Assembly: GCF_014652455.1 (NCBI RefSeq)
Contig: NZ_BMYV01000001.1
Span: forward strand, 682,001-746,000
Direction of reading: 5' to 3'
Length of the DNA stretch: 64,000 nt
Source of the DNA: Litorimonas cladophorae
GTDB taxonomy: Bacteria; Pseudomonadota; Alphaproteobacteria; Caulobacterales; Maricaulaceae
This document shows, piece by piece, positions 3,699 to 51,351 of this stretch; positions within the stretch are counted from its first letter, which is position 1; each line of letters opens with the position of its first letter. The translations under genes were made by a program, and so were the position numbers. Below the pieces are notes generated by a model. It saw only the letters and a list, made by a program, of their open reading frames with translations. It was not told the origin of the DNA and searched no databases.

Positions 3699-4919
3699 TT
3701 ACTCCGCGACAGCAGGCTCGACCGCTTCTTGCATCATGAGCTTTATATTACGCGCCGCCTGACGAATACGTTGTTCGTTTTCAACAACCGCGATCCGCAC
3801 GTAACCTTCACCATTGGCGCCGAAGCCGACACCCGGGGAAACCGCGACACCCGCTTTGACCATCAAGAGTTTAGAAAATTCGACTGACCCTAAATGAGCA
3901 TATTTGGGCGGCAATGGCGCCCAAGCAAACATTGAAGCATCGGGCGATGGAATATCCCAACCCGCGCGACCGAAGCTCTCGACCAAAACGTCTCGGCGCT
4001 TGCGATAGATTTCTCTCGCTTCGGCAACACAGTCTTGAGGTCCGTCGAGCGCGGCACAGGCCGCGACTTGAATCGGCGTGAACGCACCATAGTCGAGGTA
4101 TGATTTTACGCGTGTCAGGGCGGCGATTAAACGACGATTTCCAACCGCAAACCCCATACGCCAACCTGCCATAGAGTAAGTTTTTGACAATGACGTCATT
4201 TCGATCGCCATAATGTCCTCGGGATCGACAAATTCAAAAATAGAGGGCGGCGCTTCGCCAAAATAGATTTCAGAATAAGCGAGGTCAGACAGGATAATAA
4301 TATCATTGGCCTTCGCGATCTGAATGATCTCTTCATAGAAAGCACGATCAGCCATCTCTCCAGTTGGGTTTGATGGAAAGCAAACGACAATAGCCATAGG
4401 CGGCTTGTCCGCTGTGGCCAATGCGGCTTTGACCCCGGCCAAATACTCATCAGCGGTGATGGCTGGGATCCCCTGTATTTTGGCACCCGCAATAATGAAT
4501 CCATAGGCGTGTAAAGGATATGATGGGTCTGGAGCGTAGATGACATCGCCGGGCGCGGTTATGGCCTGCGCCAAATTTGCGAACCCTTCTTTCGAGCCGA
4601 TCGTCGCGATAATTTGGTCTTCAGGATCAAGCTCCACTCCAAACCGTCGGTCATAGTAGCGTGAACACGCCTGACGCAGCCCCTTGATGCCGCGTGATGC
4701 CGAATAGCCTGTCGTCTTTGGCTTTTGAACCGTTTCGACTAACTTATCGATCACATGCTTAGGTGTGGGCAAATCTGGGTTCCCGAACCCGAAGTCTATG
4801 ATATCGTGACCCTCAGCCCTCAGCTCCGCCTTTAGTTTATTAACCTCGGCAAACACGTAAGGCGGCAAACGCTTGATACGATAAAACTCGTCCGCTGAAA
4901 GTTTTGGATTGGTCTGCAT
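3699..4919 (-). CDS. PLP-dependent class I/II aminotransferase, AlaC-like
   Basis: A fold-type I aminotransferase of 406 residues. The N-terminal EFYRIKRLPPYVFAEVNKLK and IIDFGFGNPDLPTP are typical of the AlaC/YfdZ branch (COG0436), which transfers amino groups between glutamate and pyruvate. The PLP-binding lysine is K246 in SLSKTYSMAGWRMGF, and FPSNPTGEMA contains the conserved Asn-Pro-Thr-Gly. In many alphaproteobacteria an alaC homologue precedes hom, glpX and recJ. Here hom and glpX are missing and recJ follows directly. An LL-diaminopimelate or aspartate aminotransferase role cannot be excluded from sequence alone. Confidence 0.85.
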   Translation of the reverse strand: MQTNPKLSADEFYRIKRLPPYVFAEVNKLKAELRAEGHDIIDFGFGNPDLPTPKHVIDKLVETVQKPKTTGYSASRGIKGLRQACSRYYDRRFGVELDPEDQIIATIGSKEGFANLAQAITAPGDVIYAPDPSYPLHAYGFIIAGAKIQGIPAITADEYLAGVKAALATADKPPMAIVVCFPSNPTGEMADRAFYEEIIQIAKANDIIILSDLAYSEIYFGEAPPSIFEFVDPEDIMAIEMTSLSKTYSMAGWRMGFAVGNRRLIAALTRVKSYLDYGAFTPIQVAACAALDGPQDCVAEAREIYRKRRDVLVESFGRAGWDIPSPDASMFAWAPLPPKYAHLGSVEFSKLLMVKAGVAVSPGVGFGANGEGYVRIAVVENEQRIRQAARNIKLMMQEAVEPAVAE

Positions 4920-4944: not shown

Positions 4945-5340
4945 TTATTGTCTCGGTTTGTATGCAGGGAAGCCCTGTATGGGTCCCGTCGCGGGATCAT
5001 CTTTCTTGTACGCCTGAACTTTGGCTTTCAAAGCGTCGAAATCTGCTTTGGATTGTTCGGGATCGGGGCCAGACACCAAACTATATTGGCCATTTTCATC
5101 GCGTAGCCTCTGCAGTGCAATGGCATCTTGATCCCATTGCTCCGCCGAACGAATATCGTCTGGTGCTAAAGGTGCATCTTTGACCCTCGGATAACTCGTC
5201 TCAATGTTTTTTGCTTCTTCGCTAAATTCGGAAGACTTCATCAAGTCAATTTTCGGCATTGATACAGTCTGACAAGCCGCCAATGTCAGCCCCAAAAGGG
5301 GAGCCAGAAGAATCCGAAAATTTTTTGGTTGCATGATCAT
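4945..5340 (-). CDS. Hypothetical lipoprotein
   Basis: About 131 residues with a lipoprotein signal: a basic start (MIMQPKNFR), a hydrophobic stretch, then the lipobox LTLAAC, so it is probably anchored to a membrane through the cysteine. The mature part is charged and contains no family I recognise. It lies between argC and the aminotransferase (25 bp before the latter), so it may be cotranscribed with them. ATG codons at 5340 and 5334 are both possible; an upstream TTG at 5358 is less likely. Confidence 0.6.
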   Translation of the reverse strand: MIMQPKNFRILLAPLLGLTLAACQTVSMPKIDLMKSSEFSEEAKNIETSYPRVKDAPLAPDDIRSAEQWDQDAIALQRLRDENGQYSLVSGPDPEQSKADFDALKAKVQAYKKDDPATGPIQGFPAYKPRQ

Positions 5341-47281: not shown

Positions 47282-48223
47282 TTAGAACGCCGTGCGAAAT
47301 GCTTTTAAGAACCTGTCCAACTCACTGTCTGGAAGATGATTAATACCGGCTGCAGCTGAACGGCCACCCCCAGTCTCAAATTGTAGAGCCAAGCTGTCAG
47401 CACCAGAACGGCGCGCCAGTGGTGCGCGGATGGAAACAAGATAGCCTCCCTCTTGCGCAGTTAGGATCGCATGCGCGCGATCAGGGTATTCTTGCGCGAG
47501 CTGATTTCCAAACATACCTGAAACGCGACGCGAGGCGGCAGCGTCAGGCAAGACCCGGACTTCACCATAATCTTCCGAAACTAGAACTTTCGACTTATCT
47601 GCAAATAAAAAGTCATCATAATATCCGTCAGTTAGCTTTTGAACGACTTCAGGTTTGGATGACAAAAAGGCCATAGGCGTCGGAAACCCGGCCATCTCAC
47701 GATAAAGGTCGGCAGGATGAAAGTGAAGGTCAGCTTCCGACCCGCCATAACCATTATAATTCACCATTTCGCCCAATTCACGAAGGTTTGACAAAGGCAG
47801 ATCACGACCTTCGGCCAAACGCTCTGCCATACGGGGGAAATTATCACCATAGCATCCAGCAATGGCCCAAGCCCGATAGGCACCCTTGAGGAATTGATCA
47901 ACGAGGACGGCTGTGCAAACCTCACTCGACGTATTTATGTGAGCGTCTAAATCAGGGTGCTCAATACCGTTCCCCGCGTTGTGATGATCGAAATATTGAA
48001 CCGAAGCCCCATCGTTCAGAATACGCCGCAGCTCAGGTTCATTTGAGCGCATAGAGATATCTAAAACCGTTACACGGTCCCCATCTATTGCGGGAACACG
48101 ATCAAGCAATTTGATATCACGCTTTCGTCCAGTTACGAGTTTGGACTCACGGGGGTCGCTCAGTCGCAGCTGAACGAGAGATAGAATTCCGTCGGCGTCT
48201 CCGTTGAAGACATCATAATCCAC
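47282..48223 (-). CDS. DHH family phosphoesterase in the cys operon; candidate PAP phosphatase
   Basis: 313 residues. NGDADGILSLVQL, VTVLDISMR and FDHHN (DHH 79-81) form the metal-binding core, and GGGRSAAAG (about 285) is the DHHA1 motif with Arg in place of the usual His. GTG 48223 lies 2 nt after the cysNC stop, so it is very probably cotranscribed and coupled. Sulfate activation yields adenosine 3',5'-bisphosphate (PAP), which must be hydrolysed. DHH/NrnA-like enzymes are known to do this in other bacteria, so this could take the place of CysQ. The role is inferred from context; NanoRNase activity is an alternative. Confidence 0.75.
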   Translation of the reverse strand: MDYDVFNGDADGILSLVQLRLSDPRESKLVTGRKRDIKLLDRVPAIDGDRVTVLDISMRSNEPELRRILNDGASVQYFDHHNAGNGIEHPDLDAHINTSSEVCTAVLVDQFLKGAYRAWAIAGCYGDNFPRMAERLAEGRDLPLSNLRELGEMVNYNGYGGSEADLHFHPADLYREMAGFPTPMAFLSSKPEVVQKLTDGYYDDFLFADKSKVLVSEDYGEVRVLPDAAASRRVSGMFGNQLAQEYPDRAHAILTAQEGGYLVSIRAPLARRSGADSLALQFETGGGRSAAAGINHLPDSELDRFLKAFRTAF

Positions 48224-48225
48224 AA

Positions 48226-50139
48226 TTAAGACCCGCCAACGTTAAAGAAGCCACGGTCCGACAGATACTCAATCACCATGTCGGCGGCTTCCTCAGCACT
48301 CATCTTGACGGTATCTACAACAATTTCTGGGTCGACTGGCGGTTCATATTCGGAATCAATGCCTGTGAAATTCTTGATTTCGCCAGCACGGGCGCGGGCA
48401 TATAGGCCTTTTACGTCGCGGGCTTCAGCGACGGCCAGCGGCGTATCGACATGAATTTCAATGAATTCCCCAACCTCCAATAACTCGCGAGCCATCTGCC
48501 GTTCTGCGCGATAAGGCGAAATAAAACTCGCCATGGTGATCAAACCTGCATCTACCATCAATTTTGCGACTTCACCTATCCGACGAATATTTTCAATGCG
48601 GTCGGCCTTGGAGAAGTTTAGATCACGGTTCAATCCATGACGAACATTGTCTCCGTCCAGCGTATAAGCATGACGCCCCATGTCCATGAGGCGTTTGTCG
48701 ACAAGGTTAGCAATTGTCGATTTCCCTGAACCAGATAGTCCCGTGAACCACAACAGAGCGGGCTTTTGGCCTTTTTGATCTGATCGGGCGGATTTATTTA
48801 CATCTTGATCCTGCCACACAACATTTTTCGCACGTCGCAAAGAGAAATCGAGCATTCCCGCACCGATCGTCTCGTGAGTTTGCCGGTCAATGAGAATGAA
48901 TGCTCCGGTAGCGCGGTTATCCGCGTAGGAGTCAAAAGCGATCGGCGCGCTCAGACTCAATGTGACAGTGCCGATTTCGTTCAAATCTAACGTATTCGCC
49001 GACACTTCAGAAAAATTATTGATATCAACGCGATGCTTTAACTTACTGACCCTTGCAGGCACGGTCTTATTCGTCGTTTTTAATAGATACTCACGACCGG
49101 GATAGAGCTTTTGCTCAGACATCCAGATGACATGAGCCTGAAACTGATCGGCTTGTTCAGCTGGCGCGTCAGTTTTGCAAATGACGTCACCGCGCGAAAT
49201 GTCGATTTCATCCGTGAGGGTCAAGGTGATCGCCATATCTTGGCGAGCTAACTCACGGTTTCCGTCAAAGGTCACGATTTCCTTGACGCTGGAGCGCTTT
49301 CCTGAGGGGCTTACAATTACGTCGTCACCAACCGCAATCTTCCCAGATGCGATGGTTCCACTAAAACCCCGAAAATCAAGGTTCGGTCGATTGACCCATT
49401 GTACAGGCAGACGGAACGGCGCGTCCAACGACGCGGTTTCTACATCCACTGACTCTAGATAACTTAACAAAGTCGGGCCGTTATACCAATTCGTGTTCAA
49501 AGATGGCGTGATCACGTTATCACCGTCCAAAGCTGACATGGGAATACAGGTGATTTCGTCAAAGCCTAAATCGGCAGCGAACTCCCTAAAACTCGCATCA
49601 ATATCATTGAAAGTGCGTTGATCAAAATCAAGTAAATCCATTTTATTGACGGCCACAACAACATGACGAATGCCGAGCAATGACGCGATAAAGGAATGTC
49701 GACGCGTCTGTTCCTGAACGCCATAGCGCGCATCAATCAGAAGAACTGCGACATCCGCTGTCGAGGCCCCCGTCGCCATATTTCGTGTGTACTGCACATG
49801 TCCCGGCGTGTCCGCGACAATAAACTTGCGCTTGTCCGTTGAGAAAAAACGATAAGCTACATCGATCGTGATGCCCTGCTCTCGTTCTGCTGCGAGCCCG
49901 TCTACGAGAAGCGCTAAATCAATTTTATCGCCTTGCGTGCCTGACTTTTTACTATCTTTCTCAATGGTTGCGAGTTGATCCTCATAGATGAGTTTTGAGT
50001 CATACAGCAGTCGACCGATCAGCGTCGATTTGCCGTCATCAACACTGCCGCAAGTGATGAAACGTAAATAAGATTTGTTCTCTTGCGCGCGTAAATAAGC
50101 GTGGATATCGCTGGCGATAAGTTCATCGTGGTGGGCCAT
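48226..50139 (-). CDS. cysNC: Bifunctional CysN/CysC: sulfate adenylyltransferase GTPase subunit and APS kinase
   Basis: 637 residues. Residues 25-440 are CysN, an elongation-factor-like GTPase that drives ATP sulfurylase: P-loop [35 protein letters not shown] and NKMDL. Residues 460-637 are CysC, APS kinase, with P-loop GLSGSGKST (about 467-475) and [17 protein letters not shown]. Together with CysD the protein makes PAPS from sulfate and ATP. It overlaps the cysD stop by one base region (ATG at 50139) and is followed at 2 nt by the DHH gene. The fusion itself is common in Proteobacteria. Confidence 0.96.
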
Positions 50140-51245
50140 TAGAAATACCCTTCCTGCTTTTTCTGCTCCATCGAAGCACCTGCGTCCGAGTCAATTACGC
50201 GGCCTTGACGCTCGCTGGTTGTCGTAAGCAACATTTCTTGGATAACATCTGGCAATGTGACCGCTTCACTCTCAACAGCGCCCGTCAGCGGGTAGCAGCC
50301 TAACGTGCGGAACCTGACCATTTTCTCTTCAATGATCTCATCTGGTCCAATCGGCATACGATCATCATCGACCATGAAATATACCCCATCCTTTTTTACA
50401 ACAGGGCGTTTTTTCGACAGATACAGATCTGGGATTTCGATCTTTTCACGCTCAATATACTGCCAGATATCCAACTCGGTCCAATTTGAGATTGGGAAGA
50501 CACGCATGCTTTCACCGTTGTGAACGCGCGTGTTGTAAATATTCCAAAGCTCTGGGCGTTGGTTCTTGGCATCCCAGCGGTGATTTTCCGAACGAAATGA
50601 AAAAATACGTTCTTTAGCGCGAGACTTTTCTTCGTCGCGGCGCGCGCCGCCAAAGGCCGCATCAAACTTATATTTATCCAGCGCTTGCTTGAGGCCCTGT
50701 GTTTTCATGACATCGGTATGCACAGCAGACCCATGCGTGAACGGCCCCATGCCCTGGTCTACGCCATCTTGATTGATGTGGACAATCAACTCCATACCAG
50801 CTTCCTTGGCACGCCGATCGCGAAATTCGATCATTTCCTTGAACTTCCAAGTCGTATCGACATGCATGAGTGGAAAAGGAGGTGGCGCGGGATAAAAGGC
50901 CTTCTGTGCCAAATGCAGCATAACTGAACTGTCTTTACCTACAGAGTAAAGCATGACGGGATTTTCGCACTGACTGGCAACCTCACGCATGATGTGAATA
51001 CTTTCAGCTTCCAACCGATCCAGATGCGTCATCCGCAAAGCGTCTCGACCGTCCGCGTGTGCTTCAAGCTCGGCCAATTTATTCATTGCCGCGTCCAGCG
51101 TTTTAATGGTCATTTGCCCACCTTCGCGCAGGCGAGCGACGCCTTTGCCATCATTGAAAAGTTTACGAGACAACGTGGATACTGACTGGCCTGAGCGATC
51201 AGACAGTGCATCGACACGGCTTAGGAATGTTTCAATTAGACTCAT
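50139..51245 (-). CDS. cysD: Sulfate adenylyltransferase small subunit CysD with an N-terminal helix-turn-helix domain
   Basis: 368 residues in one frame. Residues 72-368 are standard Cys[19 protein letters not shown], the PP-loop [16 protein letters not shown] and [16 protein letters not shown]. Residues 1 to about 65 are extra. [37 protein letters not shown] and [16 protein letters not shown] form four helices like the small phage-repressor-type regulators of alphaproteobacteria, with GKGVARLR as probable recognition helix. Two palindromes bracket the promoter, so the protein may repress its own operon. An internal ATG (51032) could produce free CysD. Without the fusion the usual size is about 300 residues. 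Confidence 0.9.
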
Positions 51246-51264
51246 AACGGGCTCGCTTGACGAT

Positions 51265-51280
51265 GTGGGACCAATCCCAC
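51265..51280. promoter_or_regulatory. Palindromic operator candidate, downstream site at the cysD transcription start
   Basis: GTGGGA-CCAA-TCCCAC, a perfect 6-bp inverted repeat with 4-bp spacer. It begins 7 bp after the -10 box, at about +1 to +16 of the predicted transcript, where a bound protein would block initiation. Its half-sites equal those of the site at 51322-51339. Confidence 0.65.
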
Positions 51281-51287
51281 GAACCTT

Positions 51288-51316
51288 TAGATAGGCAAGA
51301 TAAACACAAACGTCAA
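51288..51316 (-). promoter_or_regulatory. cysD: Predicted sigma-70 promoter of cysD-cysNC-DHH
   Basis: TTGACG (51311-51316) and TATCTA (51288-51293) on the minus strand are separated by exactly 17 bp. The transcript would start near 51281 with a leader of about 36 nt. It sits between two identical-half-site palindromes. Confidence 0.7.
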
Positions 51317-51321
51317 TTCAA

Positions 51322-51339
51322 AGTGGGATATATCCCACT
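51322..51339. promoter_or_regulatory. Palindromic operator candidate, upstream site of the cysD promoter
   Basis: AGTGGGATATATCCCACT, a perfect 18-bp palindrome, ending 5 bp upstream of the -35 box. Its centre is 58 bp from the centre of the other site, about 5.5 helical turns. Spacer differs (TATA instead of CCAA), so the conserved parts are GTGGGA and TCCCAC. Confidence 0.65.
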
Positions 51340-51351
51340 CACTAAAAAGTG

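Follow-up and report, generated by a model that had tools for sequence, protein, structure and literature searches.

A predicted DNA-binding domain on CysD and a promoter palindrome that tracks it suggest autogenous control of sulfate activation

In the 64,000-nucleotide stretch of Litorimonas cladophorae DNA analysed here (the window), the gene for the ATP sulfurylase subunit CysD carries an additional N-terminal domain. On the strength of sequence comparisons, we consider it highly probable that this protein, HTH-CysD, is an autogenous enzyme-repressor of the cysD-cysNC operon. The original prediction, made from the letters of the window, was that a DNA-binding domain on CysD controls the enzyme's own operon. 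Our analysis supports it: a promoter palindrome tracks the domain across genomes. In the genome of the window its exact copies lie at cysD only, and the same is true of the 13 relatives, among 15 chosen, that have an exact copy.

A complete CysD with an N-terminal extension

The fused gene and its neighbourhood comprise the following features.

50139..51245, minus strand: HTH-CysD fusion gene, 368 amino acids (open frame; TIGR02039 and NF009214 over cut-off; 1ZUN chain A)
51045..51245, minus strand: N-terminal helix-turn-helix (HTH)-like domain, about residues 1-67 (conservation, purifying selection, weak HTH_3 profile similarity, phrog_7669 matches)
50139..51035, minus strand: catalytic CysD part with PP-loop and a second conserved block (profile matches, motifs, 1ZUN chain A)
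48226..50139, minus strand: cysNC, large subunit fused to APS kinase (open frame and profile matches)

As first described, cysD is one uninterrupted frame of 368 codons with an ATG start and an extra N-terminal part. The curated CysD model TIGR02039 matches residues 75-368 over its full length (502.7 bits against a cut-off of 396.6), and the solved CysD structure 1ZUN chain A aligns to residues 71-368 (E 3.1e-140). Canonical CysD therefore begins at about residue 71-75 of the fusion protein, in agreement with the residue 72 proposed originally, and is preceded by about 67 additional residues. By sequence, the catalytic part is a complete CysD, with its motifs and its cysNC partner present, and sulfurylase activity is predicted. 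The ATG of cysNC overlaps the stop codon of cysD (TAATG), so the two genes probably form a single operon. Of the 76 fused loci with sufficient sequence, 75 have cysN downstream; another 13 fused loci were too short to score. Immediately downstream of cysNC, a frame at 47282-48223 (minus strand) encodes 313 amino acids that show weak similarity to DHH/DHHA1 (E about 0.01).

We searched 137 genomes of the family, 113 of which gave a match at E 1e-30 or better. The extension is present in at least 51 of the 137 (51 loci in 51 genomes, covering 9 of 19 genera), and 39 of the 90 loci examined are without it; a further 35 matching rows, none aligning before query residue 30, were left out, and some of these could be partial or divergent. 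Searches of the order (398 genomes) and the class (385 genomes, partly overlapping) revealed CysD copies with the domain outside the family as well: a second family, within the order, gave 45 strong rows, of which 33 were translated, and two families of the class gave five loci. A contig scan, for which the best 80 of 588 matches were inspected, returned CysD loci without the domain, except one in Aestuariivirga (L167, from position 2995). Its CysD extension is only distantly alike (E 0.0002 in a four-sequence search) and lacks the site described below; it is perhaps an independent fusion. Three other candidates were rejected as having no such domain: a locus whose match starts at residue 2 (L191), and plasmid hits from Sinorhizobium medicae and Paracoccus pantotrophus that apparently reached into the extension.

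Two palindromes bracket a possible cysD promoter

Upstream of the window's cysD we identified two operator-like palindromes, with a possible promoter between them.

51265..51280, minus strand: operator-like palindrome 2, GTGGGATTGGTCCCAC, 19 nt before the ATG (sequence, genome scan, upstream scoring)
51323..51338, minus strand: operator-like palindrome 1, GTGGGATATATCCCAC (sequence, genome scan, upstream scoring)
51288..51316, minus strand: possible promoter, TTGACG-17 bases-TATCTA (by eye)

Both palindromes share the consensus GTGGGA-N4-TCCCAC, and both fall inside the fragment 51250-51345 that the original prediction had put forward for a binding test. The two sites bracket the possible promoter, for which a scan for sigma-70 promoters between the palindromes gave no hit; by eye, TTGAC or TTTACA is similarly placed in several of 20 chosen upstream regions.

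The placement of the sites bears on the direction of control. The domain could bind its own promoter as an activator, for example by raising cysD transcription in sulfur starvation. In E. coli the genes for sulfate use are controlled by an activator, and one site in the window lies upstream of the presumed -35 element, a frequent activator position. Against this, in each of the 20 chosen upstream regions no more than 43 nt separate the nearest site from the ATG, and in four of them the site directly abuts the ATG, a position that suits blocking. We therefore regard activation as unlikely and repression as the better reading of the same sites.

The palindrome accompanies the domain across genomes

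For each locus we scored the best site within 250 nt upstream, with a threshold of 10 of 12 bases, and called fusion by HMM. A site was found at 85 of 89 distinct fused loci, against one of 115 loci scored as unfused; the loci are related, so these counts are not independent events. At 11 of 12 bases or better, none of the 115 unfused loci has a site. The motif was derived from the window, which is thus not independent evidence, and the other loci are independent of it apart from common descent.

Within the family, all 51 fused loci reach 10 of 12 bases, 48 reach 11 and 32 are perfect, and a single one of 39 unfused loci (L081) has a 10-of-12 match, with none at 11. In other families, 34 of 38 distinct fused loci carry the site (39 of 43 rows, five of which, L119, L121, L123, L125 and L126, repeat genomes that are in the count already). 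Among the 76 named loci scored as unfused, which include the Aestuariivirga locus, none has the site; four of the original 80 were left out, two being too short and two having no recognised CysD. Dinucleotide shuffling gives an expectation of 0.40 of 51 and 0.23 of 43 for the two fused sets, and of 0.30 of 39 and 0.68 of 76 for the two unfused sets.

Searching whole genomes allowed us to ask where else the motif occurs. The window's own genome (3.02 Mb) contains two exact copies of GTGGGAN4TCCCAC, both at cysD. Fifteen fused relatives, selected among the family's other 50, hold 15 exact sites in 13 genomes, all of them, by coordinates, just upstream of the fused cysD; the two relatives with no exact copy have imperfect sites at cysD (L013, L048). 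Across the 16 genomes, exact copies therefore occur only before the fused cysD. A control pattern, the motif written backwards, is as frequent as the motif in the window's genome once one mismatch is allowed (five sites each) and matches exactly in 4 of the 15 relatives. What is telling is therefore where the sites lie, at cysD, and not how many there are. We considered a larger regulon and rejected it: in the genomes searched whole, exact sites lie at cysD alone, and the three one-mismatch sites of the window's genome lie within open frames and the pattern is no commoner than its control.

A FastTree phylogeny of 204 CysD sequences places six domain-less copies within a clade of 55 (node 0.99), the other 49 members of which are fused. 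One domain-less copy (L053) adjoins five fused copies (0.901), three (L054-L056) stand beside eight fused copies (0.813), and two Hyphomonas copies (L156, L158) stand beside the fused L041 (0.948). None of the six has the site. The original prediction had named orthologues without the extension as evidence against itself. Some close orthologues do indeed lack it, and since they also lack the palindrome, their existence is compatible with a domain and a site that belong together. The 38 fused copies from other families group in a separate clade (0.919), and unfused copies part the two fused clades at weak nodes (0.269 and 0.641). The tree may reflect one origin of the fusion or several, and the six domain-less copies may be losses or have arisen otherwise.

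Outside the family, four fused loci score under the threshold. One of them (L245) retains the core GGGA-N4-TCCC. The other three (L249, L250 and L252), all from one genus (g27), have, by eye, a pair of TTCCCACG half-sites in place of the usual palindrome, and the presumed recognition helix of their domain reads RI(K/R)NGGG, where the others compared read RL..GGQ. These three may represent a shifted DNA specificity.

Upstream of the fused cysD of 15 second-family loci (L122, L124, L127, L129-L132, L231, L232, L236-L238, L240, L245 and L251) we also observed a further palindrome, TTTCTGTCATRACAGAAA, about 165-200 nt before the domain.

The domain, in some cases with the core of its site, also occurs on other proteins

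The domain is not confined to CysD. Among 26 loci that carry it on other proteins, one of which (L229) looks like a LacI-type regulator, six have the core GGGA-N4-TCCC within 250 nt upstream and 20 do not; mononucleotide shuffling gives an expectation of 0.19. One carrier, an open frame extending to position 5302 (L214, G004:C3), fuses the domain to a glutamine-dependent NAD synthetase (NAD_synthase, E 1.9e-23, and CN_hydrolase), with TCAAGGGATTTGTCCCTTGA (AAGGGA-N4-TCCCTT) just upstream; it is a possible second self-regulating enzyme. The domain also sits on a conserved protein of 460-530 residues (L216, L218, L220-L224, L228, L258-L261 and L263, of which L260 is shorter). By eye this protein looks like a SAM-dependent methyltransferase; one member of the family that was searched had no Pfam or NCBIfam match, and L259 has GTGGGAAATATCCCAC upstream. 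In addition, the domain occurs in open frames of 78-108 residues. The core upstream of the domain on some non-CysD proteins indicates that the site is tied to the domain rather than to cysD.

This matters for a second alternative, in which a separate regulator binds the palindrome and the extra domain on CysD does another job, for instance in assembly with CysNC. In most cases a symmetric site close to a cys promoter is that of a stand-alone regulator, and a gene for an HTH_3-domain protein adjoins the sulfite reductase cluster in the window's own genome. That gene, at 4048-4656 (minus strand) of the region G000:C1:558000-572000 (L102), encodes 203 residues and is divergent from the cluster containing the sulfite reductase gene; its product may regulate sulfate reduction at its later steps, and its region contains no site at 10 of 12 or better. 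A separate regulator is nonetheless very unlikely in our assessment: site and domain are present together and absent together, exact sites are found at cysD only, and the core also lies upstream of some genes in which the domain is joined to an NAD synthetase, to a methyltransferase-like protein or to a small protein. We thus retain HTH-CysD itself as the candidate that binds the palindrome.

The N-terminal domain is a selected protein segment

Thirteen residues are invariant across 27 aligned members of the domain. In 12 of 12 tested pairs, non-synonymous change in the domain is lower than synonymous change (pN 0.022-0.215 against pS 0.24-0.83), and in 11 of these pairs pN is higher in the domain than in the CysD part. 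The N-terminal domain is under selection at the protein level.

The original prediction had allowed for failure if orthologues start at the internal ATG at 51032; at that position, 86 scored fused loci have methionine in 46, leucine in 39 and isoleucine in one, so that 40 lack the required residue. Although the window does have an ATG at the canonical CysD start, the reading of the fusion as an annotation or assembly artefact, with the real start at 51032, was rejected as having practically no chance of being correct, given these counts, the purifying selection and a frame conserved in 51 family genomes and 38 other distinct loci.

Resemblance to helix-turn-helix domains

The extension had been likened to small HTH regulators, and for this part of the prediction the sequence evidence is weak. 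Compared with 24 HTH_3 domains drawn from 30 loci, two alignments of the domain scored above all 300 column shuffles made of each in hhalign (23.6 against a maximum of 18.9, and 21.6 against 16.5); the probabilities were just 50% and 36%, and the two alignments were in different registers. The wider one (A3, 42 columns) pairs STLSRKLF with what we take to be helix 2 of HTH_3 and a 12-residue segment with the presumed recognition helix, close to the HTH originally read from the sequence. The narrower one (A2, 16 columns) is in a shifted frame and places STLSR on the recognition helix.

Family searches gave a similar picture. In Pfam, nothing matched the window's domain at E up to 1, and the curated HTH cut-off was not reached. 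For the 27 members, the matches were to HTH_3 (one, 0.0066), IclR (one, 0.0072), LacI (three, best 0.041), DUF6364 (ten, best 0.0031) and Cgl0159 (seven, best 0.0096), with no E below 0.003; the domain of a single relative matched HTH_26 at 0.017. A sequence search of solved structures with the domain returned nothing convincing. Overall, these comparisons point weakly to an HTH fold, most likely of the Cro/C1-like type.

The domain also resembles a phage protein family, phrog_7669, which is matched by all 27 aligned N-terminal domains (best E 2.5e-8; the window's own, 3.4e-5). This family has 105 positions and is listed as of unknown function, and the search output links it to no enzyme. A tblastn search with the 71-residue domain against phage and plasmid records gave no match, and in the window's own genome no second copy of the domain was found at E up to 1 besides itself.

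A model of autogenous repression

In the scheme we propose, the N-terminal domains of HTH-CysD would bind as a pair to the GTGGGA-N4-TCCCAC sites, which lie on either side of the cysD promoter or overlap it; we infer pairing because the site is symmetric. Bound HTH-CysD would then block transcription of cysD-cysNC, both direct binding and repression being inferred from the arrangement described above. In its most speculative step, the repressing form would be CysD that is idle with respect to CysNC turnover or that holds its product, APS. The operon might thereby be closed at times of sufficient activation capacity or product. Our tentative preference for a repressor that is idle or loaded with APS comes from the fact that CysD and NAD synthetase both form adenylates (in CysD, APS) and that BirA represses with its adenylate, biotinyl-AMP, bound.

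A broader reading takes the domain and its own GGGA-N4-TCCC operator as a portable self-repression cassette, grafted onto unrelated alphaproteobacterial enzymes (CysD, NAD synthetase and the methyltransferase-like protein), each of which would sense and repress its own operon. By analogy with biotinyl-AMP in BirA, the adenylate in the active site of CysD or NAD synthetase could then be the corepressor. We put this forward tentatively, as an idea with slightly less in its favour than against it.

Comparison with known systems

To our knowledge, little has been described of how many Alphaproteobacteria control sulfate activation. The present case names an enzyme together with its predicted DNA-binding part and its putative operator, which makes self-control of ATP sulfurylase testable with a single gene and a 100-bp fragment. 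If the model is true, sulfate activation would join the short list of pathways with a trigger enzyme, and the same small domain points to other enzymes that are possibly self-regulating.

The original prediction knew of no described system of this kind. Within the open-licence literature that we searched, this holds: we found no description of a DNA-binding domain on CysD and no trigger enzyme for sulfate activation, and PMC5343134, searched for CysD, contains no such description.

Judged as a trigger enzyme, HTH-CysD combines an enzyme that is intact by sequence with a putative DNA-binding part on one chain, and a specific site that tracks the domain lies before its own gene. Compared with CysD as represented by TIGR02039 and 1ZUN chain A, it has the same catalytic part, the same motifs and the same operon with cysN, and adds the N-terminal domain and the promoter palindromes. 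The nearest sulfur case that we found is PAPS reductase A of Tuber melanosporum, a moonlighting transcription activator (PMC4848566). Like HTH-CysD in our model, it is an enzyme of sulfate assimilation that acts on transcription, but it is fungal, it activates, and it does so through a transplantable C-terminal peptide. BirA, PutA and NadR are presented in the relevant passages of PMC8249747 and PMC6978683 as trigger enzymes with a DNA-binding part. They resemble HTH-CysD, as modelled here, in being metabolic enzymes that also regulate transcription of genes of their own pathway, whereas no enzyme named in those passages belongs to sulfate activation. HTH-CysD differs from them further in that its domain belongs to a small HTH-like family with no good Pfam match and that its exact sites were found at a single operon.
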